A stretch of DNA of 36,604 bases from a virus: positions 1 through 36,604 of the IMG/VR virus record IMGVR_UViG_3300033153_007068. One strand, written 5' to 3'. The translations under genes and the position numbers were made by a program. Below, one piece after another: positions 3,494 through 31,719 of this stretch. Below the pieces are notes generated by a model, which worked only from the letters and a program-made list of their open reading frames with translations, was not told the DNA's origin and did not search any database. Each line of letters starts with the position of its first letter. Position 1 is the first letter of the stretch.

Positions 3494-3518
3494 AAGATTA
3501 ATTAATGAGGTGGATAAT

Positions 3519-4214
3519 ATGAGCGATGATTTTGATTTTAATGATTTAAACTTTGATGATCTAATGAAAACAAAGGAATTAGATCAAAGAGATTCTGATG
3601 ACATTGTTGACGAGGCTGAAAAAAAAGGAGATCTTCAAAAAATAAAAACAAGAAATAAAATAACAAAGTTTAAAAATACACACATAGAGAAAATAAAAAA
3701 TTTAGAAGAAATGTTTTTTTTGCCAAAAAGTGGAGAGGAATCAAGATTGATAACTCAAGGATCTTTTAACATGTTTACAATAATGATGTATCTGTATAAA
3801 GAGATTGGGATTATTGACGAAATGTACTTAACTACTTTTAATATGAAAGAAGTTGTAATCTCGACGATTTTTGAAATGTTGGAAGAAAAGAAAATAAAAA
3901 AATTGAGAATAATGATATCTGAATCCATAAATCATAGAATGCCTAAAAGAATTGAGCAGTTAAAAAAATCAGTTGAAAAAAACAAAATAGAACATGACGT
4001 AAAGTTAAAACTAAACTGGAACCATTCTAAAATAATGCTAGTAAGAATTGGAAATATTTTTTATGTGCTGGAAGGTTCGGGGAATTTGTCGGATAATGCA
4101 CAAATAGAACAATATTTAATAACTAATTCAGAAGAGATTTATAAATTTCATAAAAAGTGGATGGACGAAACATTTTTAAGTAATAAACTTAAAAGAGAGG
4201 AACTTTATGGCTAA
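3519..4214 (+). CDS. Phospholipase D-like (HxK) domain protein
   Basis: The 231-residue protein starts at ATG 3519 with GAGGTGG seven bases upstream. Residues 1-60 are acidic and probably flexible. The rest resembles a PLD-like phosphodiesterase domain: HSKIMLV near residue 170 followed by GSGNLSDNAQIEQ, the HxK...GSxN arrangement of the PLD superfamily. Only one HxK motif is present, so an active enzyme would need to dimerise. PLD-like proteins occur beside terminase genes in some phages, but their role is unclear; nuclease activity or DNA handling is possible. It overlaps the probable small terminase gene by 8 bases. Confidence 0.7.
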   Translation: MSDDFDFNDLNFDDLMKTKELDQRDSDDIVDEAEKKGDLQKIKTRNKITKFKNTHIEKIKNLEEMFFLPKSGEESRLITQGSFNMFTIMMYLYKEIGIIDEMYLTTFNMKEVVISTIFEMLEEKKIKKLRIMISESINHRMPKRIEQLKKSVEKNKIEHDVKLKLNWNHSKIMLVRIGNIFYVLEGSGNLSDNAQIEQYLITNSEEIYKFHKKWMDETFLSNKLKREELYG

Positions 4215-4710
4215 AGAAAAGAAAAGTAATGCAGGTAGAAAAAATGATTATTATGACAAAATTAAACCTAATTTAAAGAAAATAGCTAAATGGTTAAAGG
4301 CAGGAGCTTTGGACAAGGAGGTAATGCAAGCCCTGAATGTTTCAAGTGCTGTTTGGTATAAGTATTTGAATATGCACAAAGAATTTAAAGATATCGCTAA
4401 AGAAAGCAAGGATAAAAGCAACCTTGACATACTTGGGAATGCGTACACATTAACTGAAAAACAGATCGTCACAGAAAAAAAAATATCTATAGTTAATGGT
4501 GTAAAAACAGTTACAGTTACAGAAAAAGAAGTATTGCCAAATGAAAGAATGTGTGAATTTTTGCTAAAAAATAGAATGCCAGAAGAGTTCAGGGATAAGC
4601 AAGATTTAACAGTCAAAGGCATTGAAGATATCAACATCACAATCAGCGGTGTGAAACCTATAGAAAAAGAGCCCAAAAACGACGAAAAAGCCAAAAATGC
4701 AAGTGGTTGA
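4207..4710 (+). CDS. Probable terminase small subunit (helix-turn-helix)
   Basis: The 167-residue protein has an N-terminal GRKNDYYDKIKPNLKKIAKW and a helix-turn-helix at about residues 30-60 (LDKEVMQALNVSSAVWYKYL), followed by a linker and a polar C-terminus. This fits the phBC6A51-type helix-turn-helix proteins and small terminases, which recognise phage DNA and load it onto the large subunit. AGAGGAAC lies ahead of ATG 4207. The large terminase gene is 4.7 kb downstream, an unusually large separation. A different DNA-binding role is possible. Confidence 0.65.
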   Translation: MAKEKKSNAGRKNDYYDKIKPNLKKIAKWLKAGALDKEVMQALNVSSAVWYKYLNMHKEFKDIAKESKDKSNLDILGNAYTLTEKQIVTEKKISIVNGVKTVTVTEKEVLPNERMCEFLLKNRMPEEFRDKQDLTVKGIEDINITISGVKPIEKEPKNDEKAKNASG

Positions 4711-4780
4711 TTTTGTTTGACTAAATGCGGATGCTGTGCGGGCGGAAGACAACTTTTATATATAAGTAAAAATTCTTGAT

Positions 4781-4814
4781 AAATAGTGAAATAAAATAAA
4801 AATTCACTATTTTT
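4781..4814 (+). terminator. Intrinsic terminator after the small terminase gene
   Basis: A perfect 10-bp inverted repeat, AAATAGTGAA (4781-4790) and TTCACTATTT (4803-4812), has a 12-base loop and runs into T residues. The rest of 4711-4969 holds the duplicated promoter-leader described separately; no convincing gene is seen there. Confidence 0.65.
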
Positions 4815-4877
4815 AACCTCCAACTTCATCTTTTTTGTAACTGTCTGGAAACATTAACGATTAATAACAACATTAAC

Positions 4878-4906
4878 TTGATTTTCCTCGTAGTCTATGC
4901 TATACT
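4878..4906 (+). promoter_or_regulatory. Promoter for the 4970 operon
   Basis: TTGATT and TATACT are spaced 17 bases apart, with an extended -10 (TATGCTATACT). The transcription start should fall near 4912-4914, immediately before the hairpin. Confidence 0.85.
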
Positions 4907-4915
4907 ATATATATA

Positions 4916-4937
4916 AGAGTTGAGGATGTTCGACTCT
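4916..4937 (+). promoter_or_regulatory. 5' UTR hairpin, copy 1
   Basis: AGAGTTG pairs with CGACTCT (one U-G pair) around the loop AGGATGTT. The second promoter copy keeps the loop exactly and keeps the stem through compensating changes, which points to a functional RNA or protein-binding structure at the 5' end of the message. Confidence 0.65.
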
Positions 4938-4969
4938 GATTTAATTAATTAAAAGAATGGAGGAATAAA

Positions 4970-5380
4970 ATGAATAAAATACTTATTGGTGGTAGAGCGT
5001 TAGTAGCATTAGGAAGCAGCAGAAGCACTTTAGATACTGATTATCTTGTGGACAATAAAAAAACAAGAGAAATGTTTATTAAAGACGAAGATAACAACAT
5101 TGATTATATAAATGCAAACGGCAATAAGTTTTTTAATGAAATATATAAAATAGAAAAAGGGAATGTGATTGCAACTCCTCAAAGCCTGCTAGAGCTTAAA
5201 GCTTATGCATTAGTTCAACATTGCCAGAATTTCAATTTTCAGAAAGCAGATGATTGTGAATATGACATAAAGTTTTTAGTTAGAAAGTTTAATCTTAAAA
5301 ATGTTGAAATAGTTTCAAAATATCTTAATGATTCAGAAATGAAAGAAGTTTTAAAAGTTATAAAAAGCACAAGAGTTTAA
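4970..5380 (+). CDS. Nucleotidyltransferase-fold protein (MNT/AbiEii-like)
   Basis: The 136-residue protein starts at ATG 4970, six bases after GGAGG. Its N-terminus GGRALVALGSSRSTLDTDYL matches the nucleotidyltransferase signature (GG, then 13 residues, then DxD). NNIDYINA may hold a third acidic residue. Near residue 68, IATPQSLLELKAYAL matches the helix that follows the active site in AbiEii/MNT-like proteins. The family transfers nucleotides to protein, RNA or small-molecule targets and often occurs in toxin-antitoxin or defence pairs. At 136 residues it is short, a minimal domain. It is first in an operon with its own promoter. Its substrate is unknown. Confidence 0.7.
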   Translation: MNKILIGGRALVALGSSRSTLDTDYLVDNKKTREMFIKDEDNNIDYINANGNKFFNEIYKIEKGNVIATPQSLLELKAYALVQHCQNFNFQKADDCEYDIKFLVRKFNLKNVEIVSKYLNDSEMKEVLKVIKSTRV

Positions 5381-5398
5381 TTAATTAAAAGAATGGAG
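5376..5398 (+). repeat. Internal copy of the TTAATTAATTAA/GGAG leader element
   Basis: These 23 bases are identical to 4940-4962 and match 7193-7214 apart from its first base and one missing A. The element contains the stop codon of the upstream gene (TAA 5378-5380), the perfect palindrome TTAATTAATTAA and the ribosome binding site of the next gene. Confidence 0.85.
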
Positions 5399-5404
5399 AT
5401 GATT

Positions 5405-5695
5405 ATGAGAAAAACAAAATCAGAAATAAGTGAAGCAATAAGAAGTTTAGCAACAAAAATGACACATGCAAATGTAATGTTTGCACTAGGGAACAACGAA
5501 TTTTTTGATAGAGATTCTGAAATGTCTCTGATTATTTTTGAACCTAAGAACAGGTGGGATATTATTGAAGAGATTGTTTCCTTCGAGGAAGACCCTAAAA
5601 TAAAAATACTTAGCTTTGAAGATCTTCTTGAATTAGAAAAGAAGCTTGAGAATTATGATAGTGAAAAAGAGATCGCGTTTTTAACTACGAATTAA
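5405..5695 (+). CDS. Partner of the nucleotidyltransferase-like gene
   Basis: The 96-residue protein starts at ATG 5405, six bases after GGAG in the repeated leader; ATG 5393 and 5399 are in frame but overlap or abut the ribosome binding site. The C-terminal KIKILSFEDLLELEKKLE resembles the helix seen in nucleotidyltransferase-like proteins and in its upstream neighbour, and the middle (SEMSLIIFEPKNRWDIIEEI) is compatible with a degenerate domain of the same fold. There is no HEPN R-x-H motif, so it is not a classic MNT-HEPN partner. It could be a regulator, antitoxin or paralogue. Confidence 0.65.
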   Translation: MRKTKSEISEAIRSLATKMTHANVMFALGNNEFFDRDSEMSLIIFEPKNRWDIIEEIVSFEEDPKIKILSFEDLLELEKKLENYDSEKEIAFLTTN

Positions 5696-5716
5696 TCTCA
5701 ATAATTTTCTTGACAA

Positions 5717-5803
5717 ATGTTCAAAAAGTTAATGTTAGATCCAGATTCAAACTATTCGGAAAAAAAGGAAAAAGAAATAAAAAGATTGATTAGAGAGGAG
5801 TAA
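5717..5803 (+). CDS. Possible 28-residue protein
   Basis: ATG 5717 opens a charged, protein-like frame (LMLDPDSNYSEKKEKEIKRL) that ends four bases before the next gene. No ribosome binding site is visible before ATG 5717 or ATG 5732. A TTGACA at 5710-5715 has only a poor -10 downstream. It may be a remnant or a leader peptide. Confidence 0.3.
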   Translation: MFKKLMLDPDSNYSEKKEKEIKRLIREE

Positions 5804-5807
5804 CATA

Positions 5808-6170
5808 ATGAACAAGAAAGTCAAACTATGGAAGAAGCAGGAGAAAAGGATTGTCAAGTTAGCGTATAGGGCAGGCTTGCTGAAACTTCCTTTAAAAGAT
5901 CTACATTGGATTAAGGAGCCATCTTTGCAAATGTGCTATTGGAATAAAAACTATCTAGGTGAGGGTGAGCAATATCCTTTAGTTTTGTCTATTCACAGTT
6001 ATTTCTTCTATGCACATGTAACAGGCTTATTTGATAAAAACGGAAATGTAGAATCTACCTACACATGCAGAACTAGCAAGCAGGCAATTAAATTTCTTTC
6101 TAAATTCCCACGCAAGATATTTGATTCTAAGATAAATAAAGTTTTGAAAGTTAATATTAAAGGAGAGTGA
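5808..6170 (+). CDS. Hypothetical phage protein
   Basis: The 120-residue basic protein starts at ATG 5808 after GAGAGGAG. It contains aromatic-rich beta-like stretches (YWNKNYLGEGEQYPLVLSIH, SYFFYAHVTGLFDKNGN) and a Lys-rich tail. No domain, membrane segment or catalytic motif is recognised. Its end is two bases from the next start. Confidence 0.7.
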   Translation: MNKKVKLWKKQEKRIVKLAYRAGLLKLPLKDLHWIKEPSLQMCYWNKNYLGEGEQYPLVLSIHSYFFYAHVTGLFDKNGNVESTYTCRTSKQAIKFLSKFPRKIFDSKINKVLKVNIKGE

Positions 6171-6171
6171 G

Positions 6172-6315
6172 ATGAGTGAGAAAGAATTGAAAGAATATTT
6201 TAATTCATACATAGGATACAACAATAAAACATTATGGAATAAAATAAAAAACTGGGATTGGAGAACTAAAGAAGATTTTAGAAAAAGTATATGGTTTGAA
6301 ATGGTGAAATTTTAA
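6172..6315 (+). CDS. Small hypothetical protein, likely cut short by TAA
   Basis: ATG 6172 follows AGGAGAGTGAG, a strong ribosome binding site. The 47-residue product (ELKEYFNSYIGYNNKTLWNK, IKNWDWRTKEDFRKSIWFEM) ends at TAA 6313-6315. The same frame then reads on as protein to 6405, overlapping the next gene by eight bases as intact neighbours do. The intact gene would encode 77 residues. Confidence 0.65.
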   Translation: MSEKELKEYFNSYIGYNNKTLWNKIKNWDWRTKEDFRKSIWFEMVKF

Positions 6316-6405
6316 CAAGAAGATAAAGGAGTATTAAATGATTTTGAATACTGCGAAAACGGTATTGATTGGAAGCCTTGCGGTGTGGAGGTGACAGATG
6401 AATGA
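6316..6405 (+). pseudogene. In-frame continuation of the 6172 gene
   Basis: Codons after the TAA encode a natural-looking segment (DFEYCENGIDWKPCGVEVTD) with no start codon usable on its own. The segment ends inside the next gene in an ATGAATGA overlap, typical of coupled phage genes. A single sense codon in place of TAA would restore one 77-residue protein. Confidence 0.55.
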
Positions 6406-6661
6406 TTACATTATAAAAATACCTATTCCAAGAATATCAAATCCTGAACCTGATTATGAAAAAATTGAGGTATTTAATAAAAAATTTGAAGAGATGTTGG
6501 ATAGGCAATTAAGGAAAATTGCTTGCTTGGAGACTGACAAGCTGCATGAGTATGAGATAGTCGCTTATTTTGAGAGTGCTGCAAATGTGGGGCTAATTGA
6601 ACCTGCATTTGGTAAAAGGGTTGCTAGGTTTTTCACAAGACATATGAGGTGCAGAAGATGA
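6398..6661 (+). CDS. Hypothetical phage protein
   Basis: The 87-residue protein starts at ATG 6398 behind GGAGGTGA. It has a proline-rich start (IKIPIPRISNPEPDYEKIEV), a helical middle and a basic end (RVARFFTRHMRCRR). It overlaps the endolysin start by four bases, so it may be co-translated with it. No family is recognised. Confidence 0.65.
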   Translation: MNDYIIKIPIPRISNPEPDYEKIEVFNKKFEEMLDRQLRKIACLETDKLHEYEIVAYFESAANVGLIEPAFGKRVARFFTRHMRCRR

Positions 6662-7077
6662 ATAACTACAAACTAAGCAGAAGATCAGCAGGAAAACTTT
6701 CAACATGCGATCCGAGAATAATAAATATACTTTCTCTTGCATTAAAGAGAAGTGCAATAGATTTTGGAATTGCTGATGGTCATAGATTGGTAATGCTACA
6801 GCAAGAGTTATTCAAGCAAGGCAAAAGCAAAATAGACGGCATAACCAAAAAAGGAAAGCACAACTATTCACCAAGTTTGGCTGTTGATATATACGCCTAC
6901 TGGGGCGGGAAAGTGCAATATGATGTTGAAAGTATGTGTTATATTGCAGGTGTTATCATGTCTGTTGCCCAAGAGCTAGGATATGAAATGAGATGGGGCG
7001 GGAATTGGAATCAAGATGGCATAGTAATTCATGATCAGAGTTTTGATGATCTGTGTCATTTTGAAATAATTGATTAA
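6658..7077 (+). CDS. M15-type peptidase endolysin
   Basis: The 139-residue protein starts at ATG 6658 (ATGA overlap with the previous stop; GAGG eight bases upstream). It is a VanY/M15-type peptidoglycan peptidase: KHNYSPSLAVDIYAY gives the first zinc His and Asp, and FDDLCHFEI gives the catalytic Glu region and last zinc His, with WGGNWNQDG between, as in phage L-alanyl-D-glutamate peptidases. There is no signal peptide, so release would need a holin. No clear holin is adjacent. It closes the first promoter-leader operon. Confidence 0.88.
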   Translation: MNNYKLSRRSAGKLSTCDPRIINILSLALKRSAIDFGIADGHRLVMLQQELFKQGKSKIDGITKKGKHNYSPSLAVDIYAYWGGKVQYDVESMCYIAGVIMSVAQELGYEMRWGGNWNQDGIVIHDQSFDDLCHFEIID

Positions 7078-7130
7078 CCAATCTTTCTCATAACCCCTTT
7101 ATATAACTAACGATTAATAACAACATTAAC

Positions 7131-7159
7131 TTGACTTTCTTCGTAGTCTATGCTATACT
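7131..7159 (+). promoter_or_regulatory. Promoter for the 7221 operon
   Basis: TTGACT (7131-7136), 17 bases, TATACT (7154-7159) with extended TGC. The start is predicted near 7166. The -35 is closer to consensus than in copy 1 (TTGATT), so this copy may be stronger. Confidence 0.87.
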
Positions 7160-7169
7160 ATATATATAA

Positions 7170-7189
7170 GAGTCGAGGATGTTCGGCTT
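7170..7189 (+). promoter_or_regulatory. 5' UTR hairpin, copy 2
   Basis: GAGTCG pairs with CGGCTT around the unchanged loop AGGATGTT. Compared with copy 1, a U-G pair became C-G and a U-A pair became U-G, so pairing is kept while sequence changed. Confidence 0.6.
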
Positions 7190-7220
7190 AGAGTTAATTA
7201 ATTAAAAGATGGAGTGCTTT

Positions 7221-7313
7221 ATGAGAAACTTATTTACAAGAAATAATAAACTAAAAGCTGATGTAACAAAAGAAGAGATTTTTAGAGATAACAGTTTAAT
7301 GGAGATTTTATGA
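7221..7313 (+). CDS. 30-residue small protein
   Basis: ATG 7221 follows GGAG (7211-7214) by six bases in the same leader context as the gene at 4970. The product (MRNLFTRNNKLKADVTKEEI, then FRDNSLMEIL) is short and charged. Its stop overlaps the next start (ATGA), and it carries that gene's ribosome binding site. It could be a real micro-protein or a leader peptide for coupling. Confidence 0.6.
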   Translation: MRNLFTRNNKLKADVTKEEIFRDNSLMEIL

Positions 7314-7492
7314 CTGGTATAGTATTTATAAATGATGGTAGTGTAACTACAAAAGAATCAGTGAAAGAAATAATGACGAAAATAAAAAAGTCAAAATGGA
7401 TTAATATAGATAATGATAGTTTTGAAAATTTTATGATAAACAGTGATAACATAGTCGCAATAGAGGAGAAAAAAGATGAAAAAGCCAGTTAA
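7310..7492 (+). CDS. Small hypothetical protein
   Basis: The 60-residue protein starts at ATG 7310 (GGAG six bases upstream, coupled to the preceding stop). It looks like a compact beta-rich fold with KKSKWINIDNDSFENFMINS and NIVAIEE, a pattern seen in small phage proteins of unknown role. It overlaps the next gene by 17 bases. Confidence 0.65.
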   Translation: MTGIVFINDGSVTTKESVKEIMTKIKKSKWINIDNDSFENFMINSDNIVAIEEKKDEKAS

Positions 7493-8159
7493 GATGAGAG
7501 TGAAGAGCAAGGAAGAGTTGTTGAAATGGTTTGAGGATAATGGGTGGGTAAAAAACAAAGATGAAATAGATGGATATGATGACGGACTGCCTGAAGATGA
7601 AGCGCAATGTTTTCAATCATATCTGTTTGAGCTATGTGGTGAAATCAAGAATTTTTCTATAAACGATGAATATGAGGGTTTTGATTTTAAAGTTTACAAA
7701 GAAAATCAAGACGATTACTGGTATTTCAAAAAAGACTGGTTGCTCCCAATAGAAGAAAAATCAGCGACCTCAGGATTTGAGAAAATGACAAAAGCTAAAT
7801 TGATTAATGAACTAAAGTGCAATGATGCAATAATTATAGAGTTGAGAGAAAAAATCTCTAACCTAAGAGAATGCATGGTACAACACAATGATGCTTACAA
7901 AGACCTTGAAAAGAAATATGAAGAAAATGTTGAATACTACACAGAGTCCGCATCGGGAATGACTGGTAAATACAATCTTGAAGTTTCCAAAAATGAAAAT
8001 TTAACTTTGAATCTCGAATCTGAAAAAAAATACAATGAAGATTATCGTGATGACAACATTAAATTGCGTGTAGAAACCAAAACTCTGAAAGAAAAGCTGG
8101 ACACCTTAACCGCTAAATGGATGGAGTTGACAATATATAAAAGAGGTCAAAATGACTGA
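7476..8159 (+). CDS. Two-part protein with C-terminal coiled coil
   Basis: The 227-residue protein starts at ATG 7476 behind GAGGAG. Residues 1-100 form one domain, ending in YWYFKKDWLLP. From Met104 the sequence MTKAKLINELKCND begins a long coiled-coil region that is clearly related to the whole gene at 8786 (MTKEQLINEIKCHE; YKDLEKKYEENVEYYTES against YKELQKVYDENAEQYRFES). It therefore looks like a fusion of a small domain to a duplicated coiled-coil protein. No membrane segment is present in this copy. Function unknown. Confidence 0.7.
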   Translation: MKKPVKMRVKSKEELLKWFEDNGWVKNKDEIDGYDDGLPEDEAQCFQSYLFELCGEIKNFSINDEYEGFDFKVYKENQDDYWYFKKDWLLPIEEKSATSGFEKMTKAKLINELKCNDAIIIELREKISNLRECMVQHNDAYKDLEKKYEENVEYYTESASGMTGKYNLEVSKNENLTLNLESEKKYNEDYRDDNIKLRVETKTLKEKLDTLTAKWMELTIYKRGQND

Positions 8160-8307
8160 GCAACAAAAAGCAACTATAAAATTAACTGCATCTGAATATT
8201 GTCTTGATGAGCAAATAGTCACTGATTTATATCGTATGTTTGGAGGTTGTCCTAAATTTTATGAAGAATTGGAAAAAGAACTTCTAAAACCTGGTTATGG
8301 AGAATAG
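8152..8307 (+). CDS. 51-residue small protein
   Basis: ATG 8152 overlaps the previous stop by eight bases and follows AAGAGGTC. The product has a protein-like composition (LTASEYCLDEQIVTDLYRMF, GGCPKFYEELEKELLKPGYG) and ends with an acidic helix. No family is recognised. Confidence 0.6.
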   Translation: MTEQQKATIKLTASEYCLDEQIVTDLYRMFGGCPKFYEELEKELLKPGYGE

Positions 8308-8308
8308 A

Positions 8309-8416
8309 ATGAAAACAATTGAAGCACTAAAAGAAATTAAAAACCAACACAACTTGACATGTGGTGTGGTCTATGCTATCATTAATTATAAACAATTGTT
8401 AATTTATTTATTTTAG
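8309..8416 (+). CDS. Possible 35-residue protein containing a promoter
   Basis: ATG 8309 lies one base after the previous stop with GGAG upstream. The N-terminal half looks real (TIEALKEIKNQHNLTCGVVY); the second half is hydrophobic and is read through the promoter at 8354. It may be a short gene or a leftover N-terminus cut by the promoter. Confidence 0.35.
   Translation: MKTIEALKEIKNQHNLTCGVVYAIINYKQLLIYLF
8354..8382 (+). promoter_or_regulatory. Promoter for the 8428 gene
   Basis: TTGACA (8354-8359), 17 bases, TATCAT (8377-8382). The last spacer bases and -10 read GTCTATGCTAT, the same 11 bases as in both promoter-leader repeats. The start is predicted near 8389, giving a leader of about 40 bases with the near-palindrome TAAACAATTGTTAA. 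Confidence 0.8.
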
Positions 8417-8427
8417 GAGAGAAAAAA

Positions 8428-8808
8428 ATGGAAACGTTAAATGCAATTATTGAAAGTATGAATTTTGGAACAACAGAGGGGTACTTGACAATGAGCCTGC
8501 AACTTAATTATGGCAATGATTCTTGTCAAAAATTCGGTGGATTTTGTTTGTACTCTCCGAGTAGCAAAAAGCAATTTAATGCAACAGGACTTTTTCTATA
8601 TAGAGTTTTAGAGGTTGCAGGTGTTGATGATATTAAAGATTTAATAGGAAAACCAATCAGAGTTGGAAAAGAAAATGGATTTTATGGAGGTATTGTGGAA
8701 ATTGGACATGTAGTAAATGATGTCTGGTTTAACCCCAAAAAAGAGTTTGAAAAATTGAGACAAGAACAAGCAGAGGGGGACAAAGATGACAAAAGAACAG
8801 TTGATTAA
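8428..8808 (+). CDS. Conserved phage hypothetical protein
   Basis: The 126-residue protein starts at ATG 8428 behind AGGAGAG. It has the pattern of a widespread phage family of unknown function: a GGFCLYSPSSKK stretch, VLEVAGVDDIKDLIGKPIRV, then VEIGHVVNDVWFNPKKEF. It is probably an early cytoplasmic protein. The end overlaps the next gene by 23 bases and supplies that gene's GAGGGGG ribosome binding site. Confidence 0.75.
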   Translation: METLNAIIESMNFGTTEGYLTMSLQLNYGNDSCQKFGGFCLYSPSSKKQFNATGLFLYRVLEVAGVDDIKDLIGKPIRVGKENGFYGGIVEIGHVVNDVWFNPKKEFEKLRQEQAEGDKDDKRTVD

Positions 8809-9178
8809 TGAAATTAAGTGCCATGAGAAAAATGAAGAAGACTTAAAAGCAAACTCAAAACATATTAACGAAACTTATGAAGGATATGTATGTGACAGTA
8901 AAATTCGTTACAAGGAATTACAAAAGGTCTACGATGAAAATGCGGAACAATATAGGTTTGAATCTATCGAACATATAAAAAAAGAAACAATTCTTAAAAA
9001 AGAAATAGAGAATTTGAAAATCTTAAATAAAGCTCTGGAGCATTACACAAAAGGAGATCTATTTAAGATTAAAATGATAATTAAACTAGAAAAGCTGTTG
9101 GTTGTATTCGTAACTTTCTTTGCTGTAACATTTCTTTTTAGCCTTTTTTTTATTATAAAACATTTCATGCAATATTAA
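8786..9178 (+). CDS. Coiled-coil protein with C-terminal membrane anchor
   Basis: The 130-residue protein starts at ATG 8786. Residues 1-95 are charged and helical and are related to residues 104-227 of the 7476 protein. Residues 104-126 (LLVVFVTFFAVTFLFSLFFI) form one strong membrane segment near the end, a tail-anchored arrangement with the coiled coil in the cytoplasm. It could be a lysis-timing or membrane-associated phage protein. There is no adjacent lysis gene to support a holin call. Confidence 0.7.
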   Translation: MTKEQLINEIKCHEKNEEDLKANSKHINETYEGYVCDSKIRYKELQKVYDENAEQYRFESIEHIKKETILKKEIENLKILNKALEHYTKGDLFKIKMIIKLEKLLVVFVTFFAVTFLFSLFFIIKHFMQY

Positions 9179-9405: not shown

Positions 9406-9434
9406 TTGACATTCTTTTTTATTTATGCTATTGT
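9406..9434 (+). promoter_or_regulatory. Promoter overlapping the large terminase start
   Basis: TTGACA (9406-9411), 17 bases, TATTGT (9429-9434), with the extended TATGCTAT seen in other promoters here. The predicted start near 9441 falls on the terminase ATG at 9440, so the message would have no leader. Confidence 0.7.
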
Positions 9435-9439
9435 CTGGA

Positions 9440-10789
9440 ATGACGTTTAATTTAAAAATAGAAGTACCAGAAAAATTAAAACAGCCTTTATTCGCTCCAC
9501 CTGTAAAACACACTATTATTACAGGTGGTAGAGGTGGAGGAAAATCAGAGGGAGTTGCAAGGGCAGTTATTGTTCACATAATGTTTAATATTGGCCACGT
9601 TCTTTGTACTCGGTCAGTGCAAAATTCTATTAAAGATTCTGTATATTCTCTACTTGTTAGATTAATAAAAGACCTTGGACTTGACTCAGTTTTTTATATA
9701 ACAAATCAAGAAATTATTTGCAGGAAAAACAACAATAAAATAATGTTTAAAGGAATGAACGCTTTGTCAGACCCCAAAAGCGAATCGGCAAAAGGTTTGA
9801 ATGATGTTAAATATTGCTGGATTGAAGAGGCTCACACCGTAACAGAAAATGATATTGATATAATAATCCCTTCAATTCGTGCAGAGGGTGCGTTGTTCTT
9901 TTGGACGCTAAATTCTAACAGAGTGCCTTGCTATGTTACAGATTATTTTGAAAATCATTCAAATGCTAAAATAACAGAGATAAATTATTTAGAAAATAGA
10001 TTTTGCCCTGATACTCTTATAGAAGAAGCTAATGAAATGAAAAAGATTAATCCAGATAAATATGATGAAGTTTGGCTTGGACATCCAAGAAAAGATACTT
10101 CAAAACAAGTTGTTGTTCGAGCGTGGATTGAAGCAGCAATAGAATTGTATAGCAAACACCCTGAAAACAAAGACGGTGCAACAATCTACGGCCTTGACGT
10201 TGGAGGTGGTGGTGATGAGAATGCACTTGCTAAAAGAAATGGCCTTGCGTTAGAAAGTTTGTGGGAGTGGGATGAAGAGGATACAGGTTTTACAGCAAAT
10301 AAAACCGCAAAGATAATGCGACAAGACCAGAACTCTCACCTTGTTTTTGATCGAGTAGGAATAGGTGCAGGTGTGAAGAGCAAATTAAAAGAAGGCGAAA
10401 ATGCACACATAAAAACAACAGCACATAGCAACGCCGAAGAAGTTCAAAACAAAAACAGGCAGTATTTAAATACAGGTATTAAGAATAAAGATATGTTTCT
10501 AAACTTCGGCAGTCAGCAATGGTTTTATGTTCGTTGGCTTTTTGAAAATGCATATAGAAAATTGAATGGAGAGGACAACATTGTTGATTTTATTACAATT
10601 AATCCAAACATAGAGCATTTAAATAAATTAAAATTGCAATTAACACAAATTGAATGGACAGACGACACACCGACCAATAAAATAAAAATAGAGAAATCGC
10701 CAAAAGGAACTAAAAGCCCTAATCTTGCCGACTCTGTTCAAATGTGTTATAGAAAACCTCGAAAACTTGTCAGTGCTTTTTCAGTTTAG
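9440..10789 (+). CDS. terL: Terminase large subunit (PBSX/Terminase_3 type)
   Basis: The 449-residue protein is the ATP-driven DNA packaging motor and nuclease. Residues 29-36 are the Walker A motif GGRGGGKS, residues 124-131 the Walker B KYCWIEEA, and FFWTLNSNR near residue 155 is the coupling motif. The C-terminal RNase H-like nuclease starts at IYGLDVGGGGDENA (Asp near residue 250), with LVFDRVGIGAG following. ATG 9440 is chosen because ATG 9425 lies inside the promoter -10 region; neither has a good ribosome binding site. Length is normal for the family. The stop is TAG. Confidence 0.95.
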   Translation: MTFNLKIEVPEKLKQPLFAPPVKHTIITGGRGGGKSEGVARAVIVHIMFNIGHVLCTRSVQNSIKDSVYSLLVRLIKDLGLDSVFYITNQEIICRKNNNKIMFKGMNALSDPKSESAKGLNDVKYCWIEEAHTVTENDIDIIIPSIRAEGALFFWTLNSNRVPCYVTDYFENHSNAKITEINYLENRFCPDTLIEEANEMKKINPDKYDEVWLGHPRKDTSKQVVVRAWIEAAIELYSKHPENKDGATIYGLDVGGGGDENALAKRNGLALESLWEWDEEDTGFTANKTAKIMRQDQNSHLVFDRVGIGAGVKSKLKEGENAHIKTTAHSNAEEVQNKNRQYLNTGIKNKDMFLNFGSQQWFYVRWLFENAYRKLNGEDNIVDFITINPNIEHLNKLKLQLTQIEWTDDTPTNKIKIEKSPKGTKSPNLADSVQMCYRKPRKLVSAFSV

Positions 10790-10865: not shown

Positions 10866-10904
10866 TTGACTTTGCAAAAAACATAGTGTAAACTAAACTT
10901 AACA
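10866..10904 (+). promoter_or_regulatory. Late promoter with palindromic operator, copy 1
   Basis: TTGACT (10866-10871), 17 bases, TAAACT (10889-10894). The 18-base dyad at 10887-10904 (TGTAAACTAAACTTAACA) overlaps the -10. The same arrangement occurs at 28846-28884. It drives the head and tail genes from the portal gene onward; the portal ATG follows about 25 bases after the predicted start. The remainder of 10790-10865 is AT-rich with no gene or clear terminator. Confidence 0.8.
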
Positions 10905-28845: not shown

Positions 28846-28884
28846 TTGACTTTTAAAACATAAAAGTGTAAACTATAGTTAACA
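28846..28884 (+). promoter_or_regulatory. Late promoter with palindromic operator, copy 2
   Basis: TTGACT (28846-28851), 17 bases, TAAACT (28869-28874). The dyad TGTAAACTATAGTTAACA (28867-28884) covers the -10 and is palindromic except for one mismatched pair. The same design occurs before the portal gene. It drives the fibre and lectin genes from 28906. Confidence 0.82.
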
Positions 28885-28905: not shown

Positions 28906-29559
28906 ATGGCAACAACAAACATCACAATTCCAGAACAAACATGGACAGAAATATCAACAGTGGGATGCGATTTCCAAGTATTGGGAGACAATTCAGTATA
29001 TGCTGTGTCTGCTGTTTCAGCCCCAACAGATTTAACAATTAAAAAAAACATACATCCTAAAAAGATTTATTCTTTTGCTGTAAATGGATCAGAAAAGCTT
29101 TTCATCTATTCTCCAATAGGTAGAGCAACAATCGCTTGTGACGAAGGAATTTCAGAAACAACAAAAGACGGATCTGCATATAATCCTACAACAGGAGCAA
29201 ACAGAATTGAAGAAATAGACCCCATCACTTTACACAACGTATCGGAAGAACATCTAATTAATGAAGTGAATCAAGCAGTTGGAACATACACAACCGTAAT
29301 CGATATGAAGAATTTCAAAAACGGTTCGATTCAGTGGGTGATCTCTGGCGGTGTGACAATGAAAATTTACATGTCAAACGATCCTGATGAAACAATAATT
29401 GCAGACATAACAAGCCTTGTTACAGGAGCAAGTTCACAAACTGATAATGATGGTGTTGGTTTTCTTGATACCAATATCAGAGTTGGAACAATAATGATAG
29501 AAATGACTACAACAGACACTTCAAACGCAACAGATGTTTTTATTTCAAGAGGCAACTGA
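28906..29559 (+). CDS. Virion structural / fibre-associated protein
   Basis: The 217-residue protein starts at ATG 28906 with AGAGG and AGG upstream. It is beta-rich, Thr/Ser/Asn-rich and lacks Cys clusters or membrane segments (TIPEQTWTEISTVGCDFQVL; AVGTYTTVIDMKNFKNGSIQ). It is the first gene behind the second late promoter, and its stop overlaps the next start. Composition and context suggest a virion surface protein. No firm family. Confidence 0.65.
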   Translation: MATTNITIPEQTWTEISTVGCDFQVLGDNSVYAVSAVSAPTDLTIKKNIHPKKIYSFAVNGSEKLFIYSPIGRATIACDEGISETTKDGSAYNPTTGANRIEEIDPITLHNVSEEHLINEVNQAVGTYTTVIDMKNFKNGSIQWVISGGVTMKIYMSNDPDETIIADITSLVTGASSQTDNDGVGFLDTNIRVGTIMIEMTTTDTSNATDVFISRGN

Positions 29560-30705: not shown

Positions 30706-31719
30706 ATGGTAACAACTAAAGTAATTGGACGAAGCGTACAAAGACTAATTGTAGAAAATGAAAGCAATCTTGTTGCAGGCTATAATTTTCAAACAAATAA
30801 TGATCAAACCGATGTTAGTTCTGCGGGTAATAACGCAACAACAACAAGCACTATGTTGAATATAACAAAACTTGGCAGAGCATTGAATTTTGACGGTGTG
30901 AAATCTCAAATGGATTGTGGAAATAGTAGCTCTTTAAAATTTAACGGTTCAGATATTGTTTTTACATATTCCATGTGGATAAAGCCCAAAAAATTAGAGG
31001 CAACAACTAAGGCTTTGTTTCACAGCAACAATTCAATTCAGTTTTTATTAATTCCTAATAAAAAAACTTATGTATATTGCTGGGGTAGCTTAGTAAATAG
31101 CGAGCTTTACGGAACCACAGAACTTCTTGAAAACACGTGGTACCATGTAGGTTTTACTATCGATAGTGACCGAGTTGGGAAACTGTATTTAAACGGAGTT
31201 GTTGAAGATTCTAAAGACATGACAGGGAGCATAGATGCGCCAACCTCCAATTTTTTTATAGGACAAAGAGGTTACAATTTAGATCAGTCATTTGACGGCG
31301 AAATTATAGTACCAAAAATATACAAAAATGAAGCCAAATCAGATGATTGGTTTGCAAAAGAATATGCAAAAAATGAAGTCATCTATTTTAAAACAGATTT
31401 TGGAGCAAATGCAAATAATACAGCTCAAACAGATATGATTGAAAACACGTTGCTCAGAGCTATTTCAGGAAGTTTTAAAGTAATTAATGATACCTACAAC
31501 AACGAAAACATAAAAGCAATTGAATGTGTAAGTTCAGGTAGTTTTGAGCTACCTATTTTTTATGGCGGCACTATTTGGGAAATGTTCTACAATAGTGGTT
31601 CTGGTTATATAAAAACAGATGGATCGGGAATTGTTTCAGGGAAAACTTTTGATATGACCACAGGTGACAAGATAATTTTGGGAAACATAACAGGTAACTA
31701 TTCTATATTTAAGAGGTAA
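30706..31719 (+). CDS. LamG-like lectin-domain virion protein
   Basis: The 337-residue protein has a concanavalin A/LamG-like domain at about residues 20-205: AGYNFQTNNDQTDVSSAGNN, LGRALNFDGVKSQMDCGNSS, TYSMWIKP, TWYHVGFTIDSDRVGKLYLN and FDGEI. This is the standard jelly-roll pattern of sugar-binding LamG_3 domains. The C-terminal part (TDFGANANNTAQTD onward) is a second beta domain. Probably a receptor-binding protein on the tail. Confidence 0.85.
   Translation: MVTTKVIGRSVQRLIVENESNLVAGYNFQTNNDQTDVSSAGNNATTTSTMLNITKLGRALNFDGVKSQMDCGNSSSLKFNGSDIVFTYSMWIKPKKLEATTKALFHSNNSIQFLLIPNKKTYVYCWGSLVNSELYGTTELLENTWYHVGFTIDSDRVGKLYLNGVVEDSKDMTGSIDAPTSNFFIGQRGYNLDQSFDGEIIVPKIYKNEAKSDDWFAKEYAKNEVIYFKTDFGANANNTAQTDMIENTLLRAISGSFKVINDTYNNENIKAIECVSSGSFELPIFYGGTIWEMFYNSGSGYIKTDGSGIVSGKTFDMTTGDKIILGNITGNYSIFKR

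Follow-up and report, generated by a model that had tools for sequence, protein, structure and literature searches.

Two near-identical copies of a promoter–leader cassette stand ahead of unrelated operons between the terminase genes of an uncultured phage

Two near-identical copies of a cassette of about 107 bases were identified ahead of two different operons lying between terS and terL in the window, that is, the whole stretch of viral DNA analyzed here (36,604 nucleotides, about 37 kb; IMG/VR record IMGVR_UViG_3300033153_007068). We consider it probable that the two copies represent a duplicated expression module that runs on the host RNA polymerase and allows both terS–terL operons to be expressed alike. 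The cassette is real, is functional in all likelihood, and is ordinary in kind, repeated promoters of such sort being a familiar feature of phage genomes. The coordinates of the relevant features are summarized in Table 1.

Table 1. Features of the terS–terL region, in window positions
Feature	Position	Strand	Details
terS	4207-4710
Terminator-like AT-rich hairpin	4781..4816	+	10-bp stem AAATAGTGAA/TTCACTATTT, then T run
Cassette copy 1	4855..4962	+	upstream block, promoter, hairpin leader, palindrome, Shine–Dalgarno (SD)
Upstream block, copy 1	4855..4877	+	TAACGATTAATAACAACATTAAC, same in both copies
Predicted promoter 1	4878..4906	+	TTGATT - 17 - TATACT, extended -10 TATGCTATACT
Leader 5'-terminal hairpin, copy 1	4916..4937	+	9 pairs, loop GATG
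TTAATTAATTAA, AAAGAAT, SD GGAG, copy 1	4941..4962	+
Nucleotidyltransferase-like gene, first of operon 1	4970..5380	+	motif GG..AL..GS.R.T.D.D
Third, partial cassette copy	5376..5398	+	23 nt identical to 4940-4962
96-aa gene, function unassigned	5405..5695	+	translated from RBS of partial cassette copy
Endolysin, L-Ala-D-Glu peptidase type, last gene of operon 1	6649..7077	+
Cassette copy 2	7108..7214	+
Predicted promoter 2	7131..7159	+	TTGACT - 17 - TATACT, extended -10
Leader 5'-terminal hairpin, copy 2	7170..7189	+	8 pairs
TTAATTAATTAA, AAAGAT, SD GGAG, copy 2	7194..7214	+
Operon 2	7221..9178	+	small genes 30, 60, 227, 51, 126, 130 aa
Predicted promoter 3, same core	8354..8382	+	TTGACA - 17 - TATCAT, TATGCTAT; without upstream block or hairpin
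Predicted promoter 4, same core	9406..9434	+	directly ahead of terL; overlaps first possible terL start
terL	9425-10789

In a self-BLAST of the window, positions 4855-4962 and 7108-7214 were aligned over 108 columns with 92.6% identity (E=1.1e-38), the copies differing by seven substitutions and one single-base indel, and the same repeat was recovered independently by repeat finding and by searching the virus record. The near-identical promoter-leaders that the first-pass annotation had placed in front of different operons were thus confirmed. The similarity starts at TAACGATT, just ahead of the upstream block, and stops at the SD sequence GGAG. The 40-nt left flanks of the copies agreed at 17/40 positions (p about 0.05 against random pairs), which was not convincing, and an upstream extension of the homology, considered on the basis of this identity and a TAAC common to both at -17, was rejected as not significant. 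At the other end, the genes behind the copies gave no alignment past the start region.

The presence of tail sheath, tape measure, and baseplate genes in the window indicated that the record derives from a contractile-tailed phage. Judging from TerL and MCP sequences, its known relatives all appear remote: TerL showed 31% identity to that of Acinetobacter phages such as LZ35, with relatives at about 30% only, and MCP showed 32% identity to that of Azospirillum phage Cd, with no MCP relative in GTDB genomes. The first gene of operon 1 is called nucleotidyltransferase-like from its motif only, since the Pfam, PHROG, and PDB searches gave no match, while its homologues were detected in seven viral contigs (49-64% identity by tblastn; 50-62% in the alignment). 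The endolysin was assigned by phrog_465 (E 6e-35) and by about 40% identity to annotated L-alanyl-D-glutamate peptidases, and family searches assigned no function to the small genes of operon 2. A 44-nt repeat (82%; 7782-7825 and 8783-8826) encoding MTKxxLINExKC was observed in two accessory genes, internally in the one and at the beginning of the other. A perfect 26-nt inverted repeat links a small accessory gene (7608-7633) to a virion structural gene (31422-31447), and low-complexity GCTTCTGCTGCT-type repeats occupy 316-559 inside an ORF at the left end of the window.

In the upstream block, TAAC occurs at 4855, 4865, and 4874, in steps of 10 and 9 bases, and the block may possibly serve as an activator site or an UP-like element. 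Both cassettes conform to the sigma-70-type extended -10 class (a TTGACA-like -35, 16-18 spacing, and TGnTATAAT-like -10), with TTGAYT, 17 bases, and TATACT with TG, extended as TGCTATACT. The extended -10 sequence TATGCTAT was found four times in the window, on the + strand only, always ahead of genes, and in every case as part of a predicted promoter (starting at 4878, 7131, 8354, and 9406) within the terS–terL interval. All four sites carry TTGAY at exactly 17 bases, an arrangement that appeared in none of 60 shuffles. The sites at 8354 and 9406, which had been overlooked in the first-pass annotation together with the partial copy at 5376-5398, are devoid of the TAAC upstream block. The promoter core thus defines a separate family that extends beyond the cassette; only the palindrome, the hairpin, and the upstream block are confined to the two cassettes along with the partial third copy. 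terL has no clear SD sequence, and the -10 of promoter 4 ends 6 bases ahead of the ATG at 9440; as the predicted transcription start coincides with this ATG, the terL mRNA is possibly leaderless. A second promoter type, TTGACTTT-N12-GTGTAAACTA followed by TTAACA, was located at 10866-10895 and 28846-28875, ahead of the portal/head genes and of the gene at 28906, respectively; these are two exact matches, against 0.14 expected even when up to 3 mismatches are allowed, and they possibly form a late class. If the expression-module reading set out below is right, two promoter types are exposed in one uncultured phage: TATGCTAT promoters would serve terL together with the lysis and accessory genes, and GTGTAAACTA promoters the virion genes.

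All of the named parts of the cassette, namely the upstream block, promoter, hairpin, TTAATTAATTAA palindrome, and SD, were found as originally annotated. In both copies ATATATATAAG sits between the -10 and the leader hairpin, and transcription is predicted to start a few bases ahead of the hairpin, at about 4913 in copy 1 and near 7166 in copy 2. The copy 1 hairpin (-10.6 kcal/mol, z -2.6) folded better than shuffled sequences, and that of copy 2 (-8.8 to -9.9 kcal/mol, z -1.1) was alone no stronger than shuffles. The hairpin segment accounts for five of the seven substitutions between the copies (Fisher p 0.002). Four of them affect the stem, where G-U steps preserve standard pairing in three cases and the outermost pair is lost. 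No change was seen in the upstream block, in the palindrome, or from the -10 to the hairpin, but the -35/-10 spacer did change. The kept pairing points to, and does not prove, a preserved fold, because about half of random stem transitions would retain a pair. A search of Rfam gave no match above the gathering score in the window. Downstream of the hairpin, the TTAATTAATTAA palindrome provides a stop codon in every frame of both strands (six frames) and occurs three times in the whole window as against 0.05 expected. The RBS element TTAATTAATTAAAAG(A)ATGGAG likewise has three copies, and the start codon lies 6-7 bases downstream of it in both cassettes.

The partial copy falls at the junction of the first two genes of operon 1. 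The nucleotidyltransferase-like gene terminates at a stop codon within the palindrome of this copy, and the remainder constitutes the RBS of the next gene. This exact 23-nt recurrence indicated that the 3' end of the leader has been reused without the promoter.

To these parts we assign the following roles in the proposed module. Transcription would start from an extended -10 promoter of the host sigma-70 type that has a TAAC-rich element upstream. The 5' end of the mRNA would then lie only a few bases from a stable hairpin, which most likely shields this end from decay. The six-frame stop palindrome would terminate stray translation, the unstructured A/T leader and strong SD would leave free access to the ribosome, and operons 1 and 2 would consequently be expressed simultaneously and at a similar level. 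In favor of such a module, presumably duplicated within the phage, the limits of the repeat coincide with the start of the upstream block and the SD; the fixed spacing of the four TATGCTAT promoters, the fold of the copy 1 hairpin, and the clustered, mostly pair-keeping substitutions also count for it. A fresh promoter at cassette 1 also fits the terminator-like hairpin just ahead of it, which follows terS, lies outside the repeat (fold -8.0 kcal/mol, z -1.96), and has no counterpart ahead of copy 2. On the other side stand the shuffle-like stability of the copy 2 hairpin and the first-gene homologues carried by other phages without the leader. On the + strand, no terminator-like site was found between the copy 1 hairpin and cassette 2, and promoter 1 may therefore serve operon 2 as well. 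Shared control of the two operons, as the first-pass annotation had proposed, was upheld in part: shared expression is what a common leader, promoter, and upstream block most naturally suggest, but at least four terS–terL promoters have this core, and the RBS end is reused within operon 1.

No second carrier of the cassette was found in IMG/VR with the 23-nt upstream block or the 22-nt promoter core as the pattern, in GTDB representative genomes with a 34-nt degenerate core, or in phage records by blastn with 2.9-kb and 136-nt queries, searches by exact pattern or BLAST that a diverged cassette could escape. Five IMG/VR stretches retrieved with a relaxed promoter pattern had only the common extended -10 promoter in common with the cassette, and weak Enterococcus phage matches covered the promoter only (GGTCTATGCTATAATAAT), without the leader; both were rejected. 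In the seven contigs with the nucleotidyltransferase-like gene the cassette was absent and the upstream regions were different, and in all six of these contigs that were tested the region upstream of this gene was not repeated. One of them, contig L006 from an unrelated phage, matches the window's neighborhood in outline: as read from translations, its positions 3892-7682 hold the nucleotidyltransferase-like gene, then a gene related to that at 3510-4214 of the window, and terminase-like genes after these. Such accessory genes can thus neighbor terminases in a genome where this leader is absent. Separately, an unrelated viral contig (L019; IMGVR_UViG_3300028914_000352) carries about ten promoters in 4.5 kb, many of which follow paired TTAA-type boxes about 11 bases apart that are reminiscent of PHO boxes; these upstream-box-plus-promoter units are a possible phage regulon.

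Several other explanations, which are not mutually exclusive with the expression module or with each other, were weighed. The 23-nt block next to the -35 could be bound by an activator or repressor, of phage or host origin, that acts on these two operons only, a regulon that we regard as possible rather than likely. The block is identical in the copies although the -35/-10 spacer and hairpin changed, its TAAC spacing (10, 9) is roughly helical, and the other two promoters of the TATGCTAT family are without it; however, two copies with no relatives are equally explained by recent duplication, and no regulator was recognized in the window, the record of which may be incomplete. Indeed, with only two full copies and no relative carrying the cassette, selection and recent copying are inseparable. 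The cassette might also be mobile or recombinogenic, its short homology allowing modules to be joined, swapped, or lost, as is proposed for the promoter early stem-loops (PeSLs) of T4-type phages (PMC4503421; PMC3950731). That precedent, the occurrence of one cassette ahead of unrelated genes, and a 23-nt fragment at another gene junction that resembles past reuse speak for this somewhat unlikely reading. Nevertheless, no recombinase was recognized in the window, and deletion between the copies, recombination between which is possible in principle, would leave the phage without the one endolysin-like gene that was found there.

That the repeat is a neutral recent duplication or an assembly effect, devoid of functional meaning, appears quite improbable: there are only two copies at 93% identity, but they differ from each other, each has its own continuous flanks, the boundaries match a regulatory unit, and the changes are unevenly spread. 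Still less probable is a leader-peptide attenuator, in which the ATG in the hairpin loop would open an 8-codon frame (MFDSDLIN or MFGLELIN) ending in the palindrome. Frame and stop are present in both copies, yet three of the eight codons have changed amino acid and the only SD-like sequence, GAGG, abuts the ATG. Termination at the leader hairpin is likewise unlikely because no good T run follows it, the copy 1 hairpin being terminator-like under a loose rule only; on these grounds the leader peptide was set aside. An unlikely but more ambitious proposal is a portable cassette of new layout (operator, promoter, transcribed 5' hairpin, six-frame stop palindrome, and RBS), copied ahead of newly gained genes by a non-T4 contractile-tailed lineage, used as homology for module exchange, and reusable at its RBS end alone. 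If the duplicated expression module is the right reading, a small phage holds the accessory genes lying between terS and terL under a single expression program by copying the whole promoter-leader, and provides a two-copy case for testing promoter-leader duplication as a route of gene gain.

Among known systems, 5'-terminal stem-loops of the ompA type stabilize mRNA. By its predicted fold, the cassette hairpin would resemble these in lying only a few bases from the putative 5' end, ahead of an unpaired leader and SD; unlike these, it is duplicated along with its promoter. In Cluster K mycobacteriophages, SAS/ESAS repeats occur at the translation starts of a gene subset, half of them with an upstream inverted repeat, and common control is presumed; they comprise a 13-bp asymmetric repeat GGGATAGGAGCCC and 17-bp inverted repeats in 11-19 copies, and the defined unit contains no promoter (PMC3203893). 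The cassette similarly repeats before translation starts, but its conserved RBS element, in three copies, is of a different sequence. Repeats of 17 bp are also present in Cluster O phages (PMC4351075). In halovirus HF2, intergenic repeats of 58 and 29 bp precede different genes, and promoter activity was measured for all nine that were assayed; unlike the cassette, they are archaeal promoters in more copies, and the abstract describes no leader hairpin as part of the unit (PMC8707807).

The closest comparison is with PeSLs of T4-type phages. In these, a promoter and a stem-loop recur together ahead of accessory genes that are unrelated to one another; the units are proposed to provide both common expression and homology for shuffling, and a similar motif occurs in HGTV-1 (PMC4503421; PMC3950731). 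The cassette resembles them in repeating a promoter and stem-loop ahead of unrelated genes. PeSLs are reported in Arbiol 2010 and Comeau 2014, and the title of the 2014 paper presents them as promoter-terminator composites. On that description the cassette is set apart, its repeated hairpin being downstream of the promoter, in the leader, and a poor terminator. It is no composite of a terminator stem-loop and an early promoter, as its one terminator-like neighbor, the hairpin at 4781-4816, is not part of the repeated unit. Moreover, unlike PeSL hosts, this phage is not T4-like (TerL and MCP about 31-32% to LZ35 and Cd), and it has two copies rather than a dense set. By the features tested the cassette is not a PeSL, but it may work on the same principle.
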